In this document: positions 1,585 through 25,806 of the stretch, piece by piece
Position numbering within the stretch: position 1 is the stretch's first letter
How the letters are laid out: every line of letters begins with the position of its first letter
Assembly (NCBI RefSeq): GCF_000949475.1
Contig: NZ_JRHC01000001.1
Span: 1,426,001 to 1,490,000 of the forward strand
From: Draconibacterium sediminis
Lineage (GTDB): Bacteria; Bacteroidota; Bacteroidia; Bacteroidales; Prolixibacteraceae
Length of the DNA stretch: 64,000 bases
Direction: 5' to 3'
Notes under the pieces: generated by a model
Database searches by the model: none
What the model saw: the letters and a program-made list of their open reading frames with translations, nothing else
Told to the model about the DNA's origin: nothing
Position numbers and translations under genes: made by a program

Positions 1585-2961
1585 TTAATTGGTTTTAGTG
1601 ATTGAACGAATTTTACTGTTTATCTCTTTAGCCTTGTCAAGCGATGTACTTTCAATATAAATCCTGACAATTGGCTCGGTGTTCGATTTGCGCATGTGTG
1701 CCCAACCATCTTCGAAATAAAGTTTTAAGCCATCAATTTCATTTGTTTTACATTCCGGAAATGATGCTTTAACGTCCTGCAATAATTGGTTCAAATCAAC
1801 ATTTTCATCAAACTCAATTTTGTCTTTCAACATTTCGTAACTGGGGTATTGCGCCCGAATTTCTGATGCACTTTTTTTCGACTTTGCCAGTTGCGTAAGA
1901 AACAATGCGATGCCTACCAAAGCATCGCGGCCATAATGAAGTTCGGGATAGATCACGCCTCCGTTTCCTTCGCCACCAATTACTGCGTTCACTTTTTTCA
2001 TTTGCTCCACAACATTTACTTCGCCAACTGCCGACTCGTAAAACTGAACATTGTGTTTTTTGGCAATGTCTTTTAACGCGTTGGTCGACGAAAGGTTAGC
2101 TGCAATTGTTCCGGGTGTGTTCGCCAAAATGTAATCGGAGATCGATACCAAAGTATATTCCTCGCCAAAGGCTTTTCCGTGTTCGTCAACCAGTGCCAGT
2201 CTGTCCACATCGGGATCGACAGCAATTCCAAGGTCTAAATTATGTTCGCTAACAGTTTTACACAGCTCGGTTAAGTTTTCTTCCAGCGGTTCGGCAACTC
2301 TCGAGAAAAGGCCATGTGGTTCGGCAAAAATTTCAACCACATCATTCACGCCCAAAGCTTTTAACAATTTTGGAATTGACGGATTACCAACCGAGTTTAC
2401 AGTGTCGATAGCTACTTTTAGTTGTGCTTCTTTTATCGCTTCTTTATCTACCAATGGCAGGCTCAAAATGCTTTCGATGTGCTTGTCGATGTACGATTCA
2501 TTTGTAATGTAGCTCCCAATGTGTTGTGCTTCTACAAATTCGAAGGTGGCTTTTTGTGCCTGTTTCAGAATTTCTTCACCATCAGCCTGCGAAATAAATT
2601 CGCCTTTGCGGTTCAGTAGTTTTAGGGCGTTCCAATTGCCGGGATTGTGGCTGGCGGTGATAATTATTCCTCCGTGTGCATTTTCCATCGGGATGGCAAT
2701 TTCCACGGTTGGGGTTGGTGCCAGTCCCAAATCAATTACATCGATTCCGAGGCTGTTTAATGTGCCAACAATCAAATTCAGAACCATCTGCCCCGAAACG
2801 CGTGCATCGCGACCAATAACTACTGTTGGTTTCTCTGCTGTTTGTTTTATCCAGGTTCCGTATGCACCCGCAAATTTTAGTACATCAAAAGGGGAGAGCG
2901 ACTCTCCGGGCTGCCCGCCAATTGTTCCGCGGATTCCTGATATTGAACTTATTAATGTCAT
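1585..2961 (-). CDS. glmM: Phosphohexomutase, phosphoglucosamine mutase type
   Basis: A 458-residue alpha-D-phosphohexomutase, expected to interconvert 6-phospho and 1-phospho hexosamines for UDP-GlcNAc synthesis. The phosphoserine loop TASHNPGNW has the active Ser at residue 104; the Mg loop is DPDVDR, the sugar-specificity loop GEGNGGV, and the C-terminal phosphate site RKSNTEP. The N-terminal SGIRGTIGG is typical of the Bacteroidota GlmM-like group. It is cotranscribed with the downstream kinase (1-bp gap). Specificity for glucosamine over glucose or mannose cannot be proved from sequence. Confidence 0.8.
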   Translation of the reverse strand: MTLISSISGIRGTIGGQPGESLSPFDVLKFAGAYGTWIKQTAEKPTVVIGRDARVSGQMVLNLIVGTLNSLGIDVIDLGLAPTPTVEIAIPMENAHGGIIITASHNPGNWNALKLLNRKGEFISQADGEEILKQAQKATFEFVEAQHIGSYITNESYIDKHIESILSLPLVDKEAIKEAQLKVAIDTVNSVGNPSIPKLLKALGVNDVVEIFAEPHGLFSRVAEPLEENLTELCKTVSEHNLDLGIAVDPDVDRLALVDEHGKAFGEEYTLVSISDYILANTPGTIAANLSSTNALKDIAKKHNVQFYESAVGEVNVVEQMKKVNAVIGGEGNGGVIYPELHYGRDALVGIALFLTQLAKSKKSASEIRAQYPSYEMLKDKIEFDENVDLNQLLQDVKASFPECKTNEIDGLKLYFEDGWAHMRKSNTEPIVRIYIESTSLDKAKEINSKIRSITKTN

Positions 2962-3132
2962 TTTATTAATTTTTTATTTAGATTTTTTTAATTCTGGATC
3001 ATAAAAGCAAATGGGTACTTCCACTACTTTTGCGATGGTCTGTTTTGTTTAGGATCCCAGCTTCTAAAAGCTGGAATCGATACATGGTTTCCCATAAAAC
3101 TCCTGGCTGGTAGCTTAATTCGTTGGCAAGCT

Positions 3133-4035
3133 TTAGTTTTGCCAGAGTTTAGCAGGATAAACATTTTTTTCGATCAGATTATTGATCGCTTCAACCGCTT
3201 TCGCTTTGTCTTCGCTGTAAGTAACTCCAAACCATTGCGCATCCGACTTCAACACTTTAAACTGCGTAACTTCACTTTTGATAATTTCCGAAACTACAAA
3301 TGGTATGTAAAACTCGGACTTAAGTTCTTCGCCTCGTTCATCCAGAAAGGCGATAAACTGTGCTTCCAGGTGATTAAAAAGCTGTGGTGTAAATCCCCAG
3401 AAATTCATCGAAACGGTTGTATCAGCTGCAAGCGAAATCCACTGTTCATTTTCCTTGTAGGCAATACCGTTTTTTGTTTGCTCAATGTGTGTGCGTTCAT
3501 TTACCTCTTTCAGAAAACCGTTTTTATCGGTTGAACAAACACCTCTTGAAACGTAACCGTTTTCCGAGATTGTATTTTTTAAGTTGTAACCTATCATGCA
3601 GTTTTGTTCGTCGGTGGCTTCGGTGGCAAGAAAATCGGCCATTGTTTTAAAGGCACCGGCTCCGTAATAATCATCGGCATTAATAACCGCGAACGGTTCG
3701 TTAATGCAGTTTTTTGCCATTAATATGGCGTGACCCGTTCCCCATGGTTTTTCTCTTTCCGGATTGTACTTTGAATTCTGCGGGACTTTATCAATCTCCT
3801 GAGTTACATACTCTACTTCAATTCTTCCCGCAATTTTTGAATTAAAGAGTGCTTTAAATTCCTGCTCAAAACTTTCCCGAATAACAAAGACTATCTTGCC
3901 AAATCCGGCTTCAATAGCATCGTAAATCGAGTAGTCGATAATCGTTTCGTTCGATGGGCCAATCGGATCCATCTGTTTTAATCCTCCGTATCGGCTTCCC
4001 ATTCCGGCCGCTAACACTAATAATGTAGGTTTCAT
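3133..4035 (-). CDS. Sugar-1-phosphate nucleotidyltransferase
   Basis: About 300 residues of the NTP_transferase Rossmann family. The N-terminal LAAGMGSRYGGLKQMDPIG is the nucleotide-binding loop and INADDYYG holds the metal-binding Asp. I chose the ATG at 4035, where the conserved region begins (MKPTLLVLAAG); ATGs at 4056 and 4071 would add 7 or 12 unconserved residues. It lies 171 bp upstream of the mutase gene and in the same direction, so the three genes may form one operon for activated sugar synthesis or salvage. It is not a GlmU fusion because the acyltransferase domain is missing. The nucleotide and sugar are unknown; a MurU-like uridylyltransferase role beside the anomeric kinase is attractive but inferred. 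Confidence 0.75.
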   Translation of the reverse strand: MKPTLLVLAAGMGSRYGGLKQMDPIGPSNETIIDYSIYDAIEAGFGKIVFVIRESFEQEFKALFNSKIAGRIEVEYVTQEIDKVPQNSKYNPEREKPWGTGHAILMAKNCINEPFAVINADDYYGAGAFKTMADFLATEATDEQNCMIGYNLKNTISENGYVSRGVCSTDKNGFLKEVNERTHIEQTKNGIAYKENEQWISLAADTTVSMNFWGFTPQLFNHLEAQFIAFLDERGEELKSEFYIPFVVSEIIKSEVTQFKVLKSDAQWFGVTYSEDKAKAVEAINNLIEKNVYPAKLWQN

Positions 4036-14303: not shown

Positions 14304-14360
14304 TTTTTTTGAAAAATTGGTTAAAAACTAACCAATGAGGTAGGACTTTATCCTTTTCGC

Positions 14361-14436
14361 TCTCCCTACGCCGGTGCTAACCGGATCAGGTTCATTGAGT
14401 ATAATCTCAGTCCCGAAGTTTAATCGGGACACCCCA
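14361..14436 (-). promoter_or_regulatory. TPP (THI-box) riboswitch
   Basis: On the minus strand the leader reads GGGGTGTC, a variable hairpin (TCCCGA with TCGGGA), CTGAGA (plus 14405-14410), a spacer, GAACCTGATCCGG (plus 14381-14393), TTAGCACCGG and CGTAGGGAGAG. These are the conserved elements of the thiamine-pyrophosphate aptamer in the right order. It ends about 58 bp before the ATG of the receptor gene, as expected for control of translation or termination by TPP. Confidence 0.93.
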
Positions 14437-14661
14437 TTGCGTAAATGTCGGGTCAAAGTTATAATGGATTTTTAAACCAACAAAATTAGGCTTAGAGAAA
14501 AGGTGAAATTCGTATTTTATTAATAAATGCCTTAACACTTCATCGATGTGATTTATTTAAGTGTATCGGCATAATTAATTTGGAATGCAGTATTCAACTC
14601 AATAATAAATTAGCAATATTTGTGGTTGCATGATTTTTTTTATGACTTAAACCAACTGAAA
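14437..14661. promoter_or_regulatory. Divergent intergenic region
   Basis: Between the riboswitch and the rhamnosidase ATG. It must contain the start of the riboswitch transcript and a rightward promoter. It is A+T rich; I see no element worth placing and no RNA gene. Confidence 0.35.
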
Positions 14662-24423: not shown

Positions 24424-24498
24424 GGGGGGTTAGCTCAGTTGGTTCAGAGCACCTGGTTTACACCCAGGGGGTCACTGGTTCGAATCCAGTACTCCCCA
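24424..24498 (+). tRNA. tRNA-Val (anticodon TAC), copy 1
   Basis: A 75-base cloverleaf. Acceptor stem GGGGGGT pairs with ACTCCCC; D arm has TAGCTCAGTTGG; anticodon stem CCTGG/CCAGG with loop TTTACAC gives anticodon TAC; T arm ACTGGTTCGAATCCAGT. The 3' CCA is not encoded. A terminator follows immediately. Confidence 0.95.
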
Positions 24499-24499
24499 C

Positions 24500-24533
24500 A
24501 AAAGAGGTTAATTTCGGTTGACCTCTTTTTTAA
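24500..24533 (+). terminator. Terminator of tRNA-Val copy 1
   Basis: AAAAGAGGT pairs with ACCTCTTTT across a short loop, followed by T residues, beginning right after the tRNA. Confidence 0.85.
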
Positions 24534-24563
24534 TGTGTTTCGCTGTTAATGTTTAAAATATTT

Positions 24564-24638
24564 GGGGGGTTAGCTCAGTTGGTTCAGAGCACCTGGTTTA
24601 CACCCAGGGGGTCACTGGTTCGAATCCAGTACTCCCCA
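24564..24638 (+). tRNA. tRNA-Val (anticodon TAC), copy 2
   Basis: Identical in sequence to copy 1 over all 75 bases, 140 bp downstream. The flanks differ: its terminator belongs to the GGTCGAC/GTCGGCC family that is repeated downstream, whereas that of copy 1 does not. This makes copy 2 the probable source of the tRNA-derived repeats that follow. Confidence 0.95.
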
Positions 24639-24645
24639 CAAAAAG

Positions 24646-24675
24646 AAAGGTCGACGTTTGTCGGCCTTTTTTGTT
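24646..24675 (+). terminator. Terminator of tRNA-Val copy 2 (founder of repeated terminator)
   Basis: AAAGGTCGAC pairs with GTCGGCCTTT (one G-U) and is followed by T residues. Near-identical hairpins recur at 24753, 25221 and 25775. Confidence 0.85.
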
Positions 24676-24683
24676 TTAAAATA

Positions 24684-24751
24684 CTCAGTTGGTTCAGAGC
24701 ATCCCGATGTTTTATCGGGAGGGTCACTGGTTCGAATCCAGTAGTTCCCAC
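24684..24751 (+). repeat. tRNA-Val-derived repeat R1
   Basis: Begins inside the D arm (CTCAGTTGGTTCAGAGCA) and ends GTAGTTCCCAC, keeping the tRNA-Val T arm unchanged. The anticodon arm is replaced by a palindrome, TCCCGAT-loop-ATCGGGA, and the 5' acceptor strand is missing. It cannot fold as a working tRNA. Confidence 0.85.
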
Positions 24752-24752
24752 G

Positions 24753-24783
24753 AAAAAAAGGTCGACGTTAGTCGGCCTTTTTT
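24753..24783 (+). terminator. Repeated terminator after R1
   Basis: GGTCGAC/GTCGGCC hairpin flanked by A and T runs, same family as the terminator of tRNA-Val copy 2. Confidence 0.8.
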
Positions 24784-24795
24784 GTTTTCAAAAAT

Positions 24796-24862
24796 CTCAG
24801 TTGGTTCAGACCCTCCCGATTTGCATCGGGAGGGTCACTGGATGGAATCAATTACTCCCTGC
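24796..24862 (+). repeat. Degenerate tRNA-derived repeat R2
   Basis: D-arm part as in R1, palindrome CTCCCGAT/ATCGGGAG with a short loop, but the T arm is altered (GGATGGAATCAAT in place of GGTTCGAATCCAG). A decayed terminator (GTCGAC then a weak right arm and T run) follows, leading into the nuclease gene. Confidence 0.8.
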
Positions 24863-24905
24863 AAGAATAGTCGACATTTGGATCGCTTTTTTGTATTTTA
24901 ACCTC

Positions 24906-25151
24906 ATGTATTATTGTTACATAATATATTCTCAAAAATTGGACAAATTCTATATCGGTTCTACAGCTGATCTCGAAGGCCGATTGCAACGCCATAATAC
25001 TTCAAATACAGGATTCACTTCAACCGGGAAACCATGGGAGTTAAAATATTATGAAACCTTTGATGAAAAAAGTGATGCAATGAAACGCGAGATGCAACTT
25101 AAAAAATGGAAAAGTAGAAATGCAATTTTGAAATTAATAGCGGAGTTTTAG
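24906..25151 (+). CDS. Single-domain GIY-YIG nuclease, copy A
   Basis: An 81-residue GIY-YIG domain from the ATG at 24906: YYCYIIYS and FYIGST form the signature strands, R26 or R29 (EGRLQRHN) is the expected catalytic Arg, and E62 (MKREMQLKKWKSR) the metal-binding Glu. It belongs to the small YhbQ-like group frequent in Bacteroidota. Its stop codon TAG lies in the tRNA-derived sequence TTTTAGCTCA that opens repeat R3, so the gene is physically fused to the repeat. A longer reading upstream through the tRNA sequence is an artefact. Confidence 0.88.
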   Translation: MYYCYIIYSQKLDKFYIGSTADLEGRLQRHNTSNTGFTSTGKPWELKYYETFDEKSDAMKREMQLKKWKSRNAILKLIAEF

Positions 25152-25219
25152 CTCATTTGGTTCAGAGCATCCCGATGTTTTATCGGGAGGGTCACTGGTT
25201 CGAATCCAGTAGTTCCCAC
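25152..25219 (+). repeat. tRNA-Val-derived repeat R3
   Basis: Same as R1 except one base in the D loop. It starts directly at the stop codon of GIY-YIG copy A; the preceding GGAGTTTTAG overlaps the gene's last codons. Confidence 0.85.
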
Positions 25220-25220
25220 G

Positions 25221-25251
25221 AAAAAAAGGTCGACGTTGGTCGGCCTTTTTT
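25221..25251 (+). terminator. Repeated terminator after R3
   Basis: Same hairpin as at 24753, with one base changed in the loop. Confidence 0.8.
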
Positions 25252-25263
25252 GTTTTCAAAAAT

Positions 25264-25330
25264 CTCAGTTGGTTCAGAGCATCCCGATGTTTTATCGGGT
25301 GGGTCACTGGATGGAATCAATTACTCCCAG
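25264..25330 (+). repeat. Degenerate tRNA-derived repeat R4
   Basis: Shares with R2 the altered T arm (GGATGGAATCAAT), but has the palindrome loop of R1/R3 (GTTTT). It is thus a mosaic of the two types. Confidence 0.8.
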
Positions 25331-25374
25331 CAAGAATAGTCGACATTTGGTTCGTTTTTTTGTATTTTAACCTC

Positions 25375-25620
25375 ATGTATTATTGTTACATAATATATTC
25401 TCAAAAATTAGATAAATTCTATATTGGTTCTACTGGAGATGTGGAAGGACGTTTACAGCGACATAATACCTCGAATAAAGGATTCACCTCAACCGGGAAA
25501 CCATGGAAGTTAAAATATTTTGAAGCCTTTGAGGAAAAAAGTGATGCAATGAAACGCGAAGCGCAGCTTAAAAAGTGGAAAAGCAGGGATGCAATTTTGA
25601 AATTGATAGAGGAGTTTTAG
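25375..25620 (+). CDS. Single-domain GIY-YIG nuclease, copy B
   Basis: An 81-residue paralogue of the 24906 gene with about 10 amino-acid differences and 31 nucleotide differences, most of them synonymous, which points to selection for the protein. The signature YYCYIIYS/FYIGST, the Arg in EGRLQRHN and the Glu in KREAQLKKW are kept. The first 11 codons are identical to copy A. The TAG stop again lies in a TTTTAGCTCAG tRNA-like start. Confidence 0.88.
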   Translation: MYYCYIIYSQKLDKFYIGSTGDVEGRLQRHNTSNKGFTSTGKPWKLKYFEAFEEKSDAMKREAQLKKWKSRDAILKLIEEF

Positions 25621-25773
25621 CTCAGTCCCGATAAAACAGAAATCTATGATTTCATTTTTTATCGAGGATGCTCGAAAATTTAAGAAATCAAAGTTTAAAG
25701 GTTTTCGGCATTGGTTCAGGGCATCCCGATCTGCATCGGGAGGGGTCACTGGTTCGAATCCAGTAGTTCCCAC
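25618..25773 (+). repeat. tRNA-derived repeat R5, interrupted
   Basis: TAGCTCAG at 25618-25625 is separated from TTGGTTCAGGGCA at 25711 by about 85 bp; the rest (palindrome ATCCCGAT/ATCGGGAG, intact T arm, GTAGTTCCCAC) continues to 25773. The insert starts TCCCGATAAAAC, which is the inverse complement of the palindrome arm of R1/R3. Confidence 0.75.
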
Positions 25774-25774
25774 G

Positions 25775-25806
25775 AAAAAAAGGTCGACATTTGTCGACCT
25801 TTTTTG
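25775..25806 (+). terminator. Repeated terminator after R5
   Basis: AAAGGTCGAC/GTCGACCTTT perfect stem with a 4-base loop and T run; also terminates toward the converging peroxidase gene. Confidence 0.8.

Follow-up and report, generated by a model that had tools for sequence, protein, structure and literature searches.

Putative homing-type GIY-YIG nuclease cassettes at tRNA genes of Draconibacterium sediminis and other Bacteroidota

RESULTS

Two small GIY-YIG genes lie among partial copies of tRNA-Val

A stretch of 64,000 nucleotides from Draconibacterium sediminis (phylum Bacteroidota; RefSeq assembly GCF_000949475.1, contig NZ_JRHC01000001.1, positions 1,426,001 to 1,490,000), referred to here as the window, carries two identical, intact tRNA-Val(TAC) genes, recognized by ARAGORN, repeat comparison, and Rfam. 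These are followed by five partial tRNA-Val copies and two open reading frames (ORFs) with a GIY-YIG nuclease domain (Table 1). Defective or partial copies of a tRNA gene are named tRNA* below. We interpret the locus as a tandem pair of free-standing, homing-type GIY-YIG cassettes that reside at tRNA-Val and belong to a tRNA-associated clade, a reading to which we assign a probability of roughly 0.6. The tandem series of tRNA-Val, tRNA-like repeat, terminator, and GIY-YIG gene described in the initial annotation, which was made from the letters of the DNA alone, is borne out by ARAGORN, Rfam, repeat analysis, and PF01541.

Each nuclease gene is set between direct copies of the local tRNA, and the intact tRNA stays beside it. 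At the window, the copied part is the 3′ part with its terminator; at some other loci, it is the 5′ part. Repeat family D1 unites the second intact tRNA with four of the five partial copies, and the tRNA terminator hairpin is copied behind three of them. The two nuclease ORFs share a 300-nt repeat (D2) that covers most of each at 89% identity. As the initial annotation had observed, both ORFs end at the TAG of TTTTAGCTCA, which corresponds to U8-A9-G10 of the next tRNA*. The 18-mer CTCAGTTGGTTCAGAGCA occurs six times at up to three mismatches, including twice in the intact tRNAs, against 0.05 occurrences expected. The initial annotation missed that a palindrome takes the place of the anticodon arm: TCCCGA..TCGGGA is exact in four of the five tRNA* and damaged in tRNA* 4. 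Five exact copies are present in the window (0.03 expected), four of them within tRNA*.

At gathering scores, Rfam reports three tRNAs and one thiamine pyrophosphate (TPP) riboswitch across the window, and no intron family. The intact tRNA-Val genes are uninterrupted according to ARAGORN, with no sign of a group I intron, and the nuclease genes are intergenic, outside any intron or intein. No integrase was found among ORFs of more than 200 amino acids (aa) in 24640-25806, where the only such frame is a read-through into nuclease gene 1 (smaller ORFs were not searched singly). ARAGORN calls tRNA* 3 a tRNA-Lys. When folding was compared with that of shuffled sequences, tRNA* 3 and tRNA* 1 reached z scores of −2.7 and −2.2, respectively, the intact tRNA −1.8, and tRNA* 5 −0.9.

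Table 1 Features of the tRNA-Val locus in the window
Feature	Position	Strand	Basis
Intact tRNA-Val(TAC), copy 1	24424-24499	+	ARAGORN; Rfam, 71.2 bits
Intact tRNA-Val(TAC), copy 2, identical to copy 1	24564-24639	+	ARAGORN, repeat family D3, Rfam
Hairpin and T run resembling a terminator, behind the second tRNA	24640-24672	+	Sequence; arm of inverted-repeat pair I1
tRNA* 1, lacking the acceptor 5′ strand; palindrome 24702-24720 replaces the anticodon arm	24684-24752	+	Sequence, repeats, palindrome count
Copied tRNA terminator	24754-24783	+	Inverted repeat I2
tRNA* 2, degenerate; palindrome 24814-24831	24796-24862	+	Sequence, palindrome count, 18-mer count
GIY-YIG nuclease gene 1 (81 aa, P0001), stop TAG inside tRNA* 3	24906-25151	+	Translation, PF01541
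tRNA* 3; palindrome 25170-25188	25142-25218	+	Rfam tRNA, 42.7 bits (gathering score, 29); palindrome count; folding
Copied tRNA terminator	25222-25251	+	Inverted repeat I3
tRNA* 4, degenerate; palindrome damaged	25264-25330	+	Sequence, repeats, 18-mer count
GIY-YIG nuclease gene 2 (81 aa, P0002), stop TAG inside tRNA* 5	25375-25620	+	Translation, PF01541, model
tRNA* 5; hairpin-rich insert of ~85 nt (~25626-25711) splits the D loop; palindrome 25724-25741	25611-25774	+	Sequence, repeats, palindrome count
Last copied tRNA terminator	25776-25805	+	Inverted repeat I8

The same anatomy recurs at other tRNA genes of the genome

PF01541 has 12 matches in the genome of D. sediminis, one in a 607-aa frame that appears UvrC-like from its sequence and 11 in small frames. 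When their positions were compared with those of 46 tRNA matches, an intact tRNA was found no farther than 1 kb from eight of the 11 small ones. By calculation, these tRNA neighborhoods (46 × ~2.3 kb) make up less than 2% of the 5.99-Mb genome. A ninth small match, at a contig end (L010), adjoins tRNA-Asp-like pieces. The host tRNAs are Val(TAC), Val(GAC), Pro(GGG), Asp, Gly, and Ala, and the recurring arrangement consists of an intact tRNA, a GIY-YIG ORF that often ends inside a tRNA copy, and partial tRNA copies. Two loci (L004 and L008) hold no tRNA, and L012 matches only the first part of the PF01541 domain and is apparently frameshifted.

Linkage to tRNA genes across the phylum is confined to one of two sister clades

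The nuclease family was also surveyed in other Bacteroidota. The phylum sample comprised 198 genomes, with 109 loci and 136 small ORFs drawn from the best-scoring PF01541 matches listed, and is therefore biased towards well-scoring members of the family. An ARAGORN tRNA lies within 1 kb at 34 of the 109 loci, compared to none of 30 HTH_3 control loci; counted by ORF, 34 of 136 have a tRNA within 300 bp and 52 within 1 kb. These tRNAs represent 13 amino acids. The initial annotation had proposed tRNA-Val as the target, which fits the association with tRNA genes and is too narrow as to the isotype.

A FastTree phylogeny was built from 198 distinct domains, after adding loci from the window's genome, the genus, and other sources and dropping identical, partial, and UvrC-like domains. 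It splits with a support of 96 into clade N (88 domains) and its sister clade R (110 domains). A same-strand tRNA within 700 bp accompanies 85 of the 110 clade R members and none of the 88 in clade N. Among these 85, the isotype changes 37 times along the tree, whereas 200 shuffles gave 66 changes on average and never fewer than 61; the labels of the window's ORFs and of L013 in this count are wrong, since ARAGORN called their tRNA* Lys and Cys. Adjacent leaves that share an isotype span at least two families for Met, Pro(CGG), Asn, Cys, Asp, and Val(TAC). The tRNA isotype is linked to the lineage of the nuclease, and this holds across families as well.

Exact direct repeats of at least 18 nt surround the ORF in 75 of the 85 tRNA-linked cases, 10 of the 25 other clade R members, and 35 of the 88 clade N members, compared to 0 of 29 control ORFs. 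Among 84 cases, a tRNA copy contains the ORF stop codon in 42, and the distance between the two is at most 10 nt in 61. Clade N genes (e.g., L150, L170, and L217; also L004 by eye) often have repeats on both sides that resemble repetitive extragenic palindromic (REP) elements.

An Rfam scan of 60 of the 75 loci without a near tRNA gave three matches, namely RNase P RNA directly beside the ORF in L138 and L157 and Acido-Lenti-1 RNA far from the ORF in L135. A laxer scan for noncoding RNAs in 18 sources, eight of them scanned before, added one sub-threshold leader match (L017). In L138 (979-1735) and L157, both from one family, the small GIY-YIG gene stands directly upstream of the RNase P RNA gene; L138 belongs to clade R and carries a 24-nt inverted copy of RNase P sequence on the other side of the ORF. 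A side branch of clade R lies in protein genes (L107:928-1332, L195, L047, L111, L123, L205, L231, and L178), named here by reading their translations, and has inverted termini, for example CCCTGTGAAATA..TATTTCACAGGG. Elements at rmlB (two families) and cysC are preceded by a 5′ fragment of the gene and followed by the whole gene; in a Y1 transposase and in tyrosine integrases, the host gene looks interrupted. Finally, in a metagenome-assembled genome (MAG) of Candidatus Giovannonibacteria, which we take to belong to the Patescibacteria, a GIY-YIG match (L026:3001-3314) reaches a tRNA-Trp gene, and the link to tRNA may therefore extend beyond the Bacteroidota.

The nuclease is a conserved single GIY-YIG domain

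P0001 and P0002 match PF01541 with 70.7 and 71.3 bits, respectively, and the domain takes up residues 1 to 71 of 81. In 14 aligned sequences, some of them partial, Y5, Y16, G18, R26, H30, and E50 are invariant and E62 is nearly so; the conserved Y, R, H, and E residues presumably include the catalytic ones. The AlphaFold2 model shows a confident GIY-YIG fold (mean predicted local distance difference test [pLDDT] score, 94.7). Among solved structures, the UPF0213 proteins 1zg2 and 1ywl are the best relatives by sequence. In a fold search, 1zg2 ranks first and 1ywl tenth, with Slx1 near and the catalytic domain of I-TevI lower. The protein is thus UPF0213-like, a single small GIY-YIG domain with nothing beyond the core that could serve as a separate DNA-recognition domain.

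The nearest NCBIfam model, a group I intron endonuclease subfamily, stays below its cut-off, and the best PHROG for P0001 is a GIY-YIG homing endonuclease (E value, 0.0017). Phage records gave no match to P0002 at an E value of 0.001; plasmid records gave 19, all below 60% identity, and a scan of viral contigs yielded two partial matches. The nuclease ORFs are under purifying selection. Among nine ORFs from Val loci, the ratio of nonsynonymous to synonymous substitutions (dN/dS) is 0.03 to 0.17 in 30 of 36 pairs, although many dS values exceed 1; dS was not computable in five pairs, and a near-identical pair (0.68) stands apart.

Occupied and empty sites alternate among close relatives

The order folC, tRNA-Val(TAC) is syntenic in the genus, where folC was matched in 35 of 37 genomes and 30 loci, the window's included, were fetched. 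Four of these end before the tRNA and one is too short, which left 25 to be judged: 10 are occupied, and the other 15 gave no match to GIY-YIG. The view past the last tRNA is ~1.0 to 1.36 kb, and one occupied locus leaves its contig after 0.1 kb. Two genomes (G012 and G013) show clean empty sites that read tRNA-tRNA-terminator-gpx, two others (G007 and G048) carry three units of ORF, tRNA*, and terminator at this place, and three loci scored as empty (G046, G047, and G005) retain tRNA* relics. Sites are therefore polymorphic, and arrays differ in copy number. Mapped on a folC tree, occupancy changes eight times, compared to a shuffled mean of 8.2 (294 of 500 shuffles give eight or fewer), and is without phylogenetic signal. 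In the unoccupied congener G005 (L061), what appears to be a group II intron-like sequence with a maturase lies at ~2614-3300, after the second tRNA-Val.

Window ORF 1 and the ORF at L013, from the uncultured Draconibacterium MAG G004, are 97% identical overall and 98% identical at third codon positions (dS, 0.046). Third positions of the flanking genes agree in 69% for folC, which lies on another contig of the MAG, and in 72% for gpx, which shares the cassette's contig. For ORF versus gpx, Fisher's test on counts back-calculated from the rounded shares gives a P value of 2e-7. This one case strongly suggests that a cassette crossed between species at the same locus without its flanks. The mobility proposed in the initial annotation gains from this apparent transfer and from the polymorphic locus, while homing by DNA cleavage stays conjectural.

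The two nuclease ORFs of the window share only 74% of third positions, and the pair therefore did not arise by a recent duplication. G008 offers a clear case of tandem growth: six units of 446 to 447 bp, neighbors being 98 to 99% identical, follow one another at a tRNA-His gene. The suspicion in the initial annotation of a self-amplifying element gains support in this sense.

Partial tRNA copies resemble the resident tRNA and carry palindromes

A census of breaks covered 68 distinct two-piece tRNA* and left out single-piece remnants. A perfect hairpin stem of at least 6 bp sits at the break in 50 of the 68, mostly in place of an arm. In most Val(TAC), Pro, Gly(TCC), Ala, Lys, and Gln copies, bases ~25-30 to 43-46, the anticodon arm, are absent; Met copies lack bases ~34-37 to 48, and Asp copies have an altered T loop in three families. 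Exceptions are the Asn copies, which are mixed, and a few Val copies that break elsewhere (T-loop or D-side). The same arm is taken by different palindromes in different families (f1 and f42 for Ala; f1, f3, f38, and Cytophagaceae for Val[TAC]). Among 34 arm swaps picked by hand from the 68 rows, 23 have their midpoint in a tRNA loop, against a null mean of 13.3 (15 of 20,000 draws reach 23); with the ends excluded, null means are 14.9 (97 of 20,000) or 13.2 (11 of 20,000). Because of the hand-picking, this clustering counts as weak support.

The initial annotation had suggested that the element may carry tRNA fragments with it. The pieces do not appear to be cargo brought in from elsewhere. 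Over 27 tRNA* bases, with register offsets applied, tails were compared to the local tRNA and to the same isotype in other sampled families; of 36 pieces, seven were uninformative, 28 of the 29 informative ones were nearest the local tRNA, and one was a tie. The pieces are thus derived from, or homogenized with, the resident tRNA.

Palindromes like those in tRNA* are dispersed in the genome of D. sediminis (65, against 5 for a control). Over the 198 genomes, TCCCGA palindromes correlate with genes for REP-associated tyrosine transposases (RAYT) at a rho of 0.49 (partial, 0.37) and with PF01541 counts, UvrC included, at 0.44 (partial, 0.21). Nine genomes have at least 15 palindromes yet no more than two PF01541 matches, and eight of these nine have RAYT genes. 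When family means are used, GIY-YIG (0.54) and RAYT (0.49) correlate with the palindromes about equally. Because per-genome numbers follow RAYT better than GIY-YIG genes, the palindromes are probably REP elements; the GIY-YIG enzyme is not favored as their main mover. The TPP riboswitch of the window (14346-14446, minus strand) also contains TCCCGA..TCGGGA (14411-14429), and REP-like palindromes may thus sit in the arms of working RNAs too.

DISCUSSION

Free-standing cassettes compared with known systems

The closest model for these cassettes is the Seg type of T-even phages, represented by SegB of phage T6, in which a free-standing GIY-YIG gene likewise stands beside tRNA genes. According to the portions of the SegB report drawn on here, the enzyme cuts within tRNA genes, a tRNA segment is amplified in tandem through homologous recombination, and no isotype preference was observed (PMC13096335). 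As in a Seg-type element, the genes described here are present or absent at the same site in relatives, encode a GIY-YIG domain with the catalytic residues, and lie between genes. Unlike SegB as described in those portions, the family resides on bacterial chromosomes, its putative nuclease is a single 81-aa domain, its pseudo-tRNAs are arm-swapped, and its lineages are linked to isotypes. In our own reading, the other strand of the SegB motif RAWTSGAAC resembles the tRNA T loop GTTCGAATC, a loop not named in the same portions (PMC13096335).

Homing at tRNA-Val would proceed as follows. The nuclease would cut a tRNA gene allele without cassette, and the break would be repaired from the occupied allele via tRNA homology, so that the ORF enters and the tRNA is regenerated. 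The displaced partial copy would become a tRNA*, and repeated copies could then recombine, giving tandem arrays, losses, and tRNA* homogenized with the local tRNA. Expression of the nuclease probably rides on the tRNA promoter, since the ORF lies just behind the tRNA terminator with a short leader.

Other mobile DNA at tRNA genes works differently. Integrase-borne elements keep the tRNA whole and leave a 3′ tRNA fragment at their far end. Unlike these, the window's cassettes have no integrase gene in evidence, as 24640-25806 holds no ORF above 200 aa apart from the read-through into nuclease gene 1. The palindromes of tRNA* resemble dispersed palindromes whose number tracks RAYT counts, as in REP/RAYT systems; unlike plain REP elements, they sit inside tRNA* copies, separate from the nuclease unit itself. 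The UPF0213 proteins, to which we take the label COG2827 to apply, share the single GIY-YIG domain of the window proteins, and we know of no link between them and tRNA. The best-ranked literature, which leaves most subscription journals and preprints uncovered, contained no description of a chromosomal, tRNA-linked GIY-YIG family. A 2006 survey of the GIY-YIG superfamily describes a prokaryotic protein in which an Slx1-like GIY-YIG domain is joined to a tRNA methyltransferase of the TrmH type, and the string "Bacteroid" was not found in the available part of its text (PMC1564403).

Several points weigh against homing-type cassettes. The absence of any domain beyond the GIY-YIG core is unusual for a sequence-specific homing enzyme. 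The intact tRNA-Val looks alike in the occupied and empty congeners shown, so the proposed mechanism does not account for how the occupied chromosome escapes the cut. Changes in occupancy counted on the folC tree cannot separate gain from loss. The G004 cassette begins 228 nt from the end of a MAG contig, and a second candidate transfer, at tRNA-Val(GAC) in G000 and G009, is weak, its downstream flank being 91 to 100% identical too. In the phylum sample, a tRNA within 1 kb is missing at 75 of the 109 loci, of which 63 or more belong to clade N. The isotypes Asn, Asp, Pro, and Val are each scattered over at least two regions of the tree, implying that lineages changed target or arose more than once.

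Alternative explanations

GIY-YIG genes might instead have landed near tRNA genes long ago as passive passengers, to be duplicated, homogenized, and deleted by unequal recombination without any targeting of tRNA. Plain recombination would be expected to give tandem arrays and local-like tRNA*, and an occupancy pattern without phylogenetic signal could reflect frequent loss only. It is harder to reconcile this explanation with isotype-linked lineages, several of them across families, with a tRNA association limited to one of two sister clades, with a cassette common to two species without its flanks, with ORFs under purifying selection, and with like anatomy at many unrelated tRNA genes. We consider it unlikely.

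It seems quite improbable that the enzyme is a structure-specific, Slx1-like nuclease whose substrates are hairpins or cruciforms of tRNA genes and palindromes, and which drives recombination and copy-number change there without true homing. Lineages linked to isotypes would not be expected of such a generic hairpin nuclease, and over the 198 genomes, the palindromes follow RAYT better than GIY-YIG counts. The GIY-YIG core of Slx1 aligns with the window protein at a TM-score of 0.61 to 0.67 (on the query), and Slx1 and the UPF0213 proteins are its nearest solved relatives. The Slx1 chains matched, several of them solved with Slx4, have 249 to 298 residues, and the window protein has nothing comparable. 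The lack of a separate DNA-binding domain, the hairpin stems at most tRNA* breaks (50 of 68), and the frequent repeats around clade N genes (35 of 88) would nevertheless suit such an activity.

A unit useful to the host, be it a tRNA dosage amplifier, a decoy tRNA, or a tRNA-like processing element for the nuclease mRNA, is very improbable: it recalls the amplification of tRNA genes described in the SegB portions cited (PMC13096335) and the better-than-shuffled folding of tRNA* 1 and 3, but the amplified copies lack the anticodon arm or other parts, which makes them unfit as ordinary tRNAs, some are degenerate, tRNA* 5 folds barely better than its shuffles, and the nuclease gene was not found at the site in 15 of the 25 judged genus genomes.

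Implications

A more far-reaching version of the homing interpretation is tentative and, taken as a whole, rather doubtful. It would make the family phylum-wide natural gene drives on tRNA genes, with isotype-specialized lineages, target copies whose cut-site arm is overwritten by a palindrome, and a side branch that moved to protein genes such as rmlB and cysC. Overwriting of that arm would render the donor pieces uncuttable. The site of cleavage would then be marked by the swapped arm, which predicts a cut in the anticodon arm for most Val(TAC), Pro, Ala, Lys, and Gln tRNAs and in the T loop for Asp. Whether the palindromes protect tRNA* from the putative cutting is the most interesting question here.

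Mobile DNA is well known to insert at tRNA genes, and the usual visitors bring integrases. Here, the resident of tRNA genes throughout a phylum appears to be a single gene for an 81-aa nuclease, with lineages linked to isotypes and the tRNA left working. For annotation, its pseudo-tRNA arrays matter because a prediction tool calls them tRNA-Lys, tRNA-Cys, or "Stop". The family also raises the testable question of bacterial homing without a separate DNA-binding domain. If our interpretation is right, these genes would be very small parasites of tRNA genes and a cellular counterpart of phage SegB.

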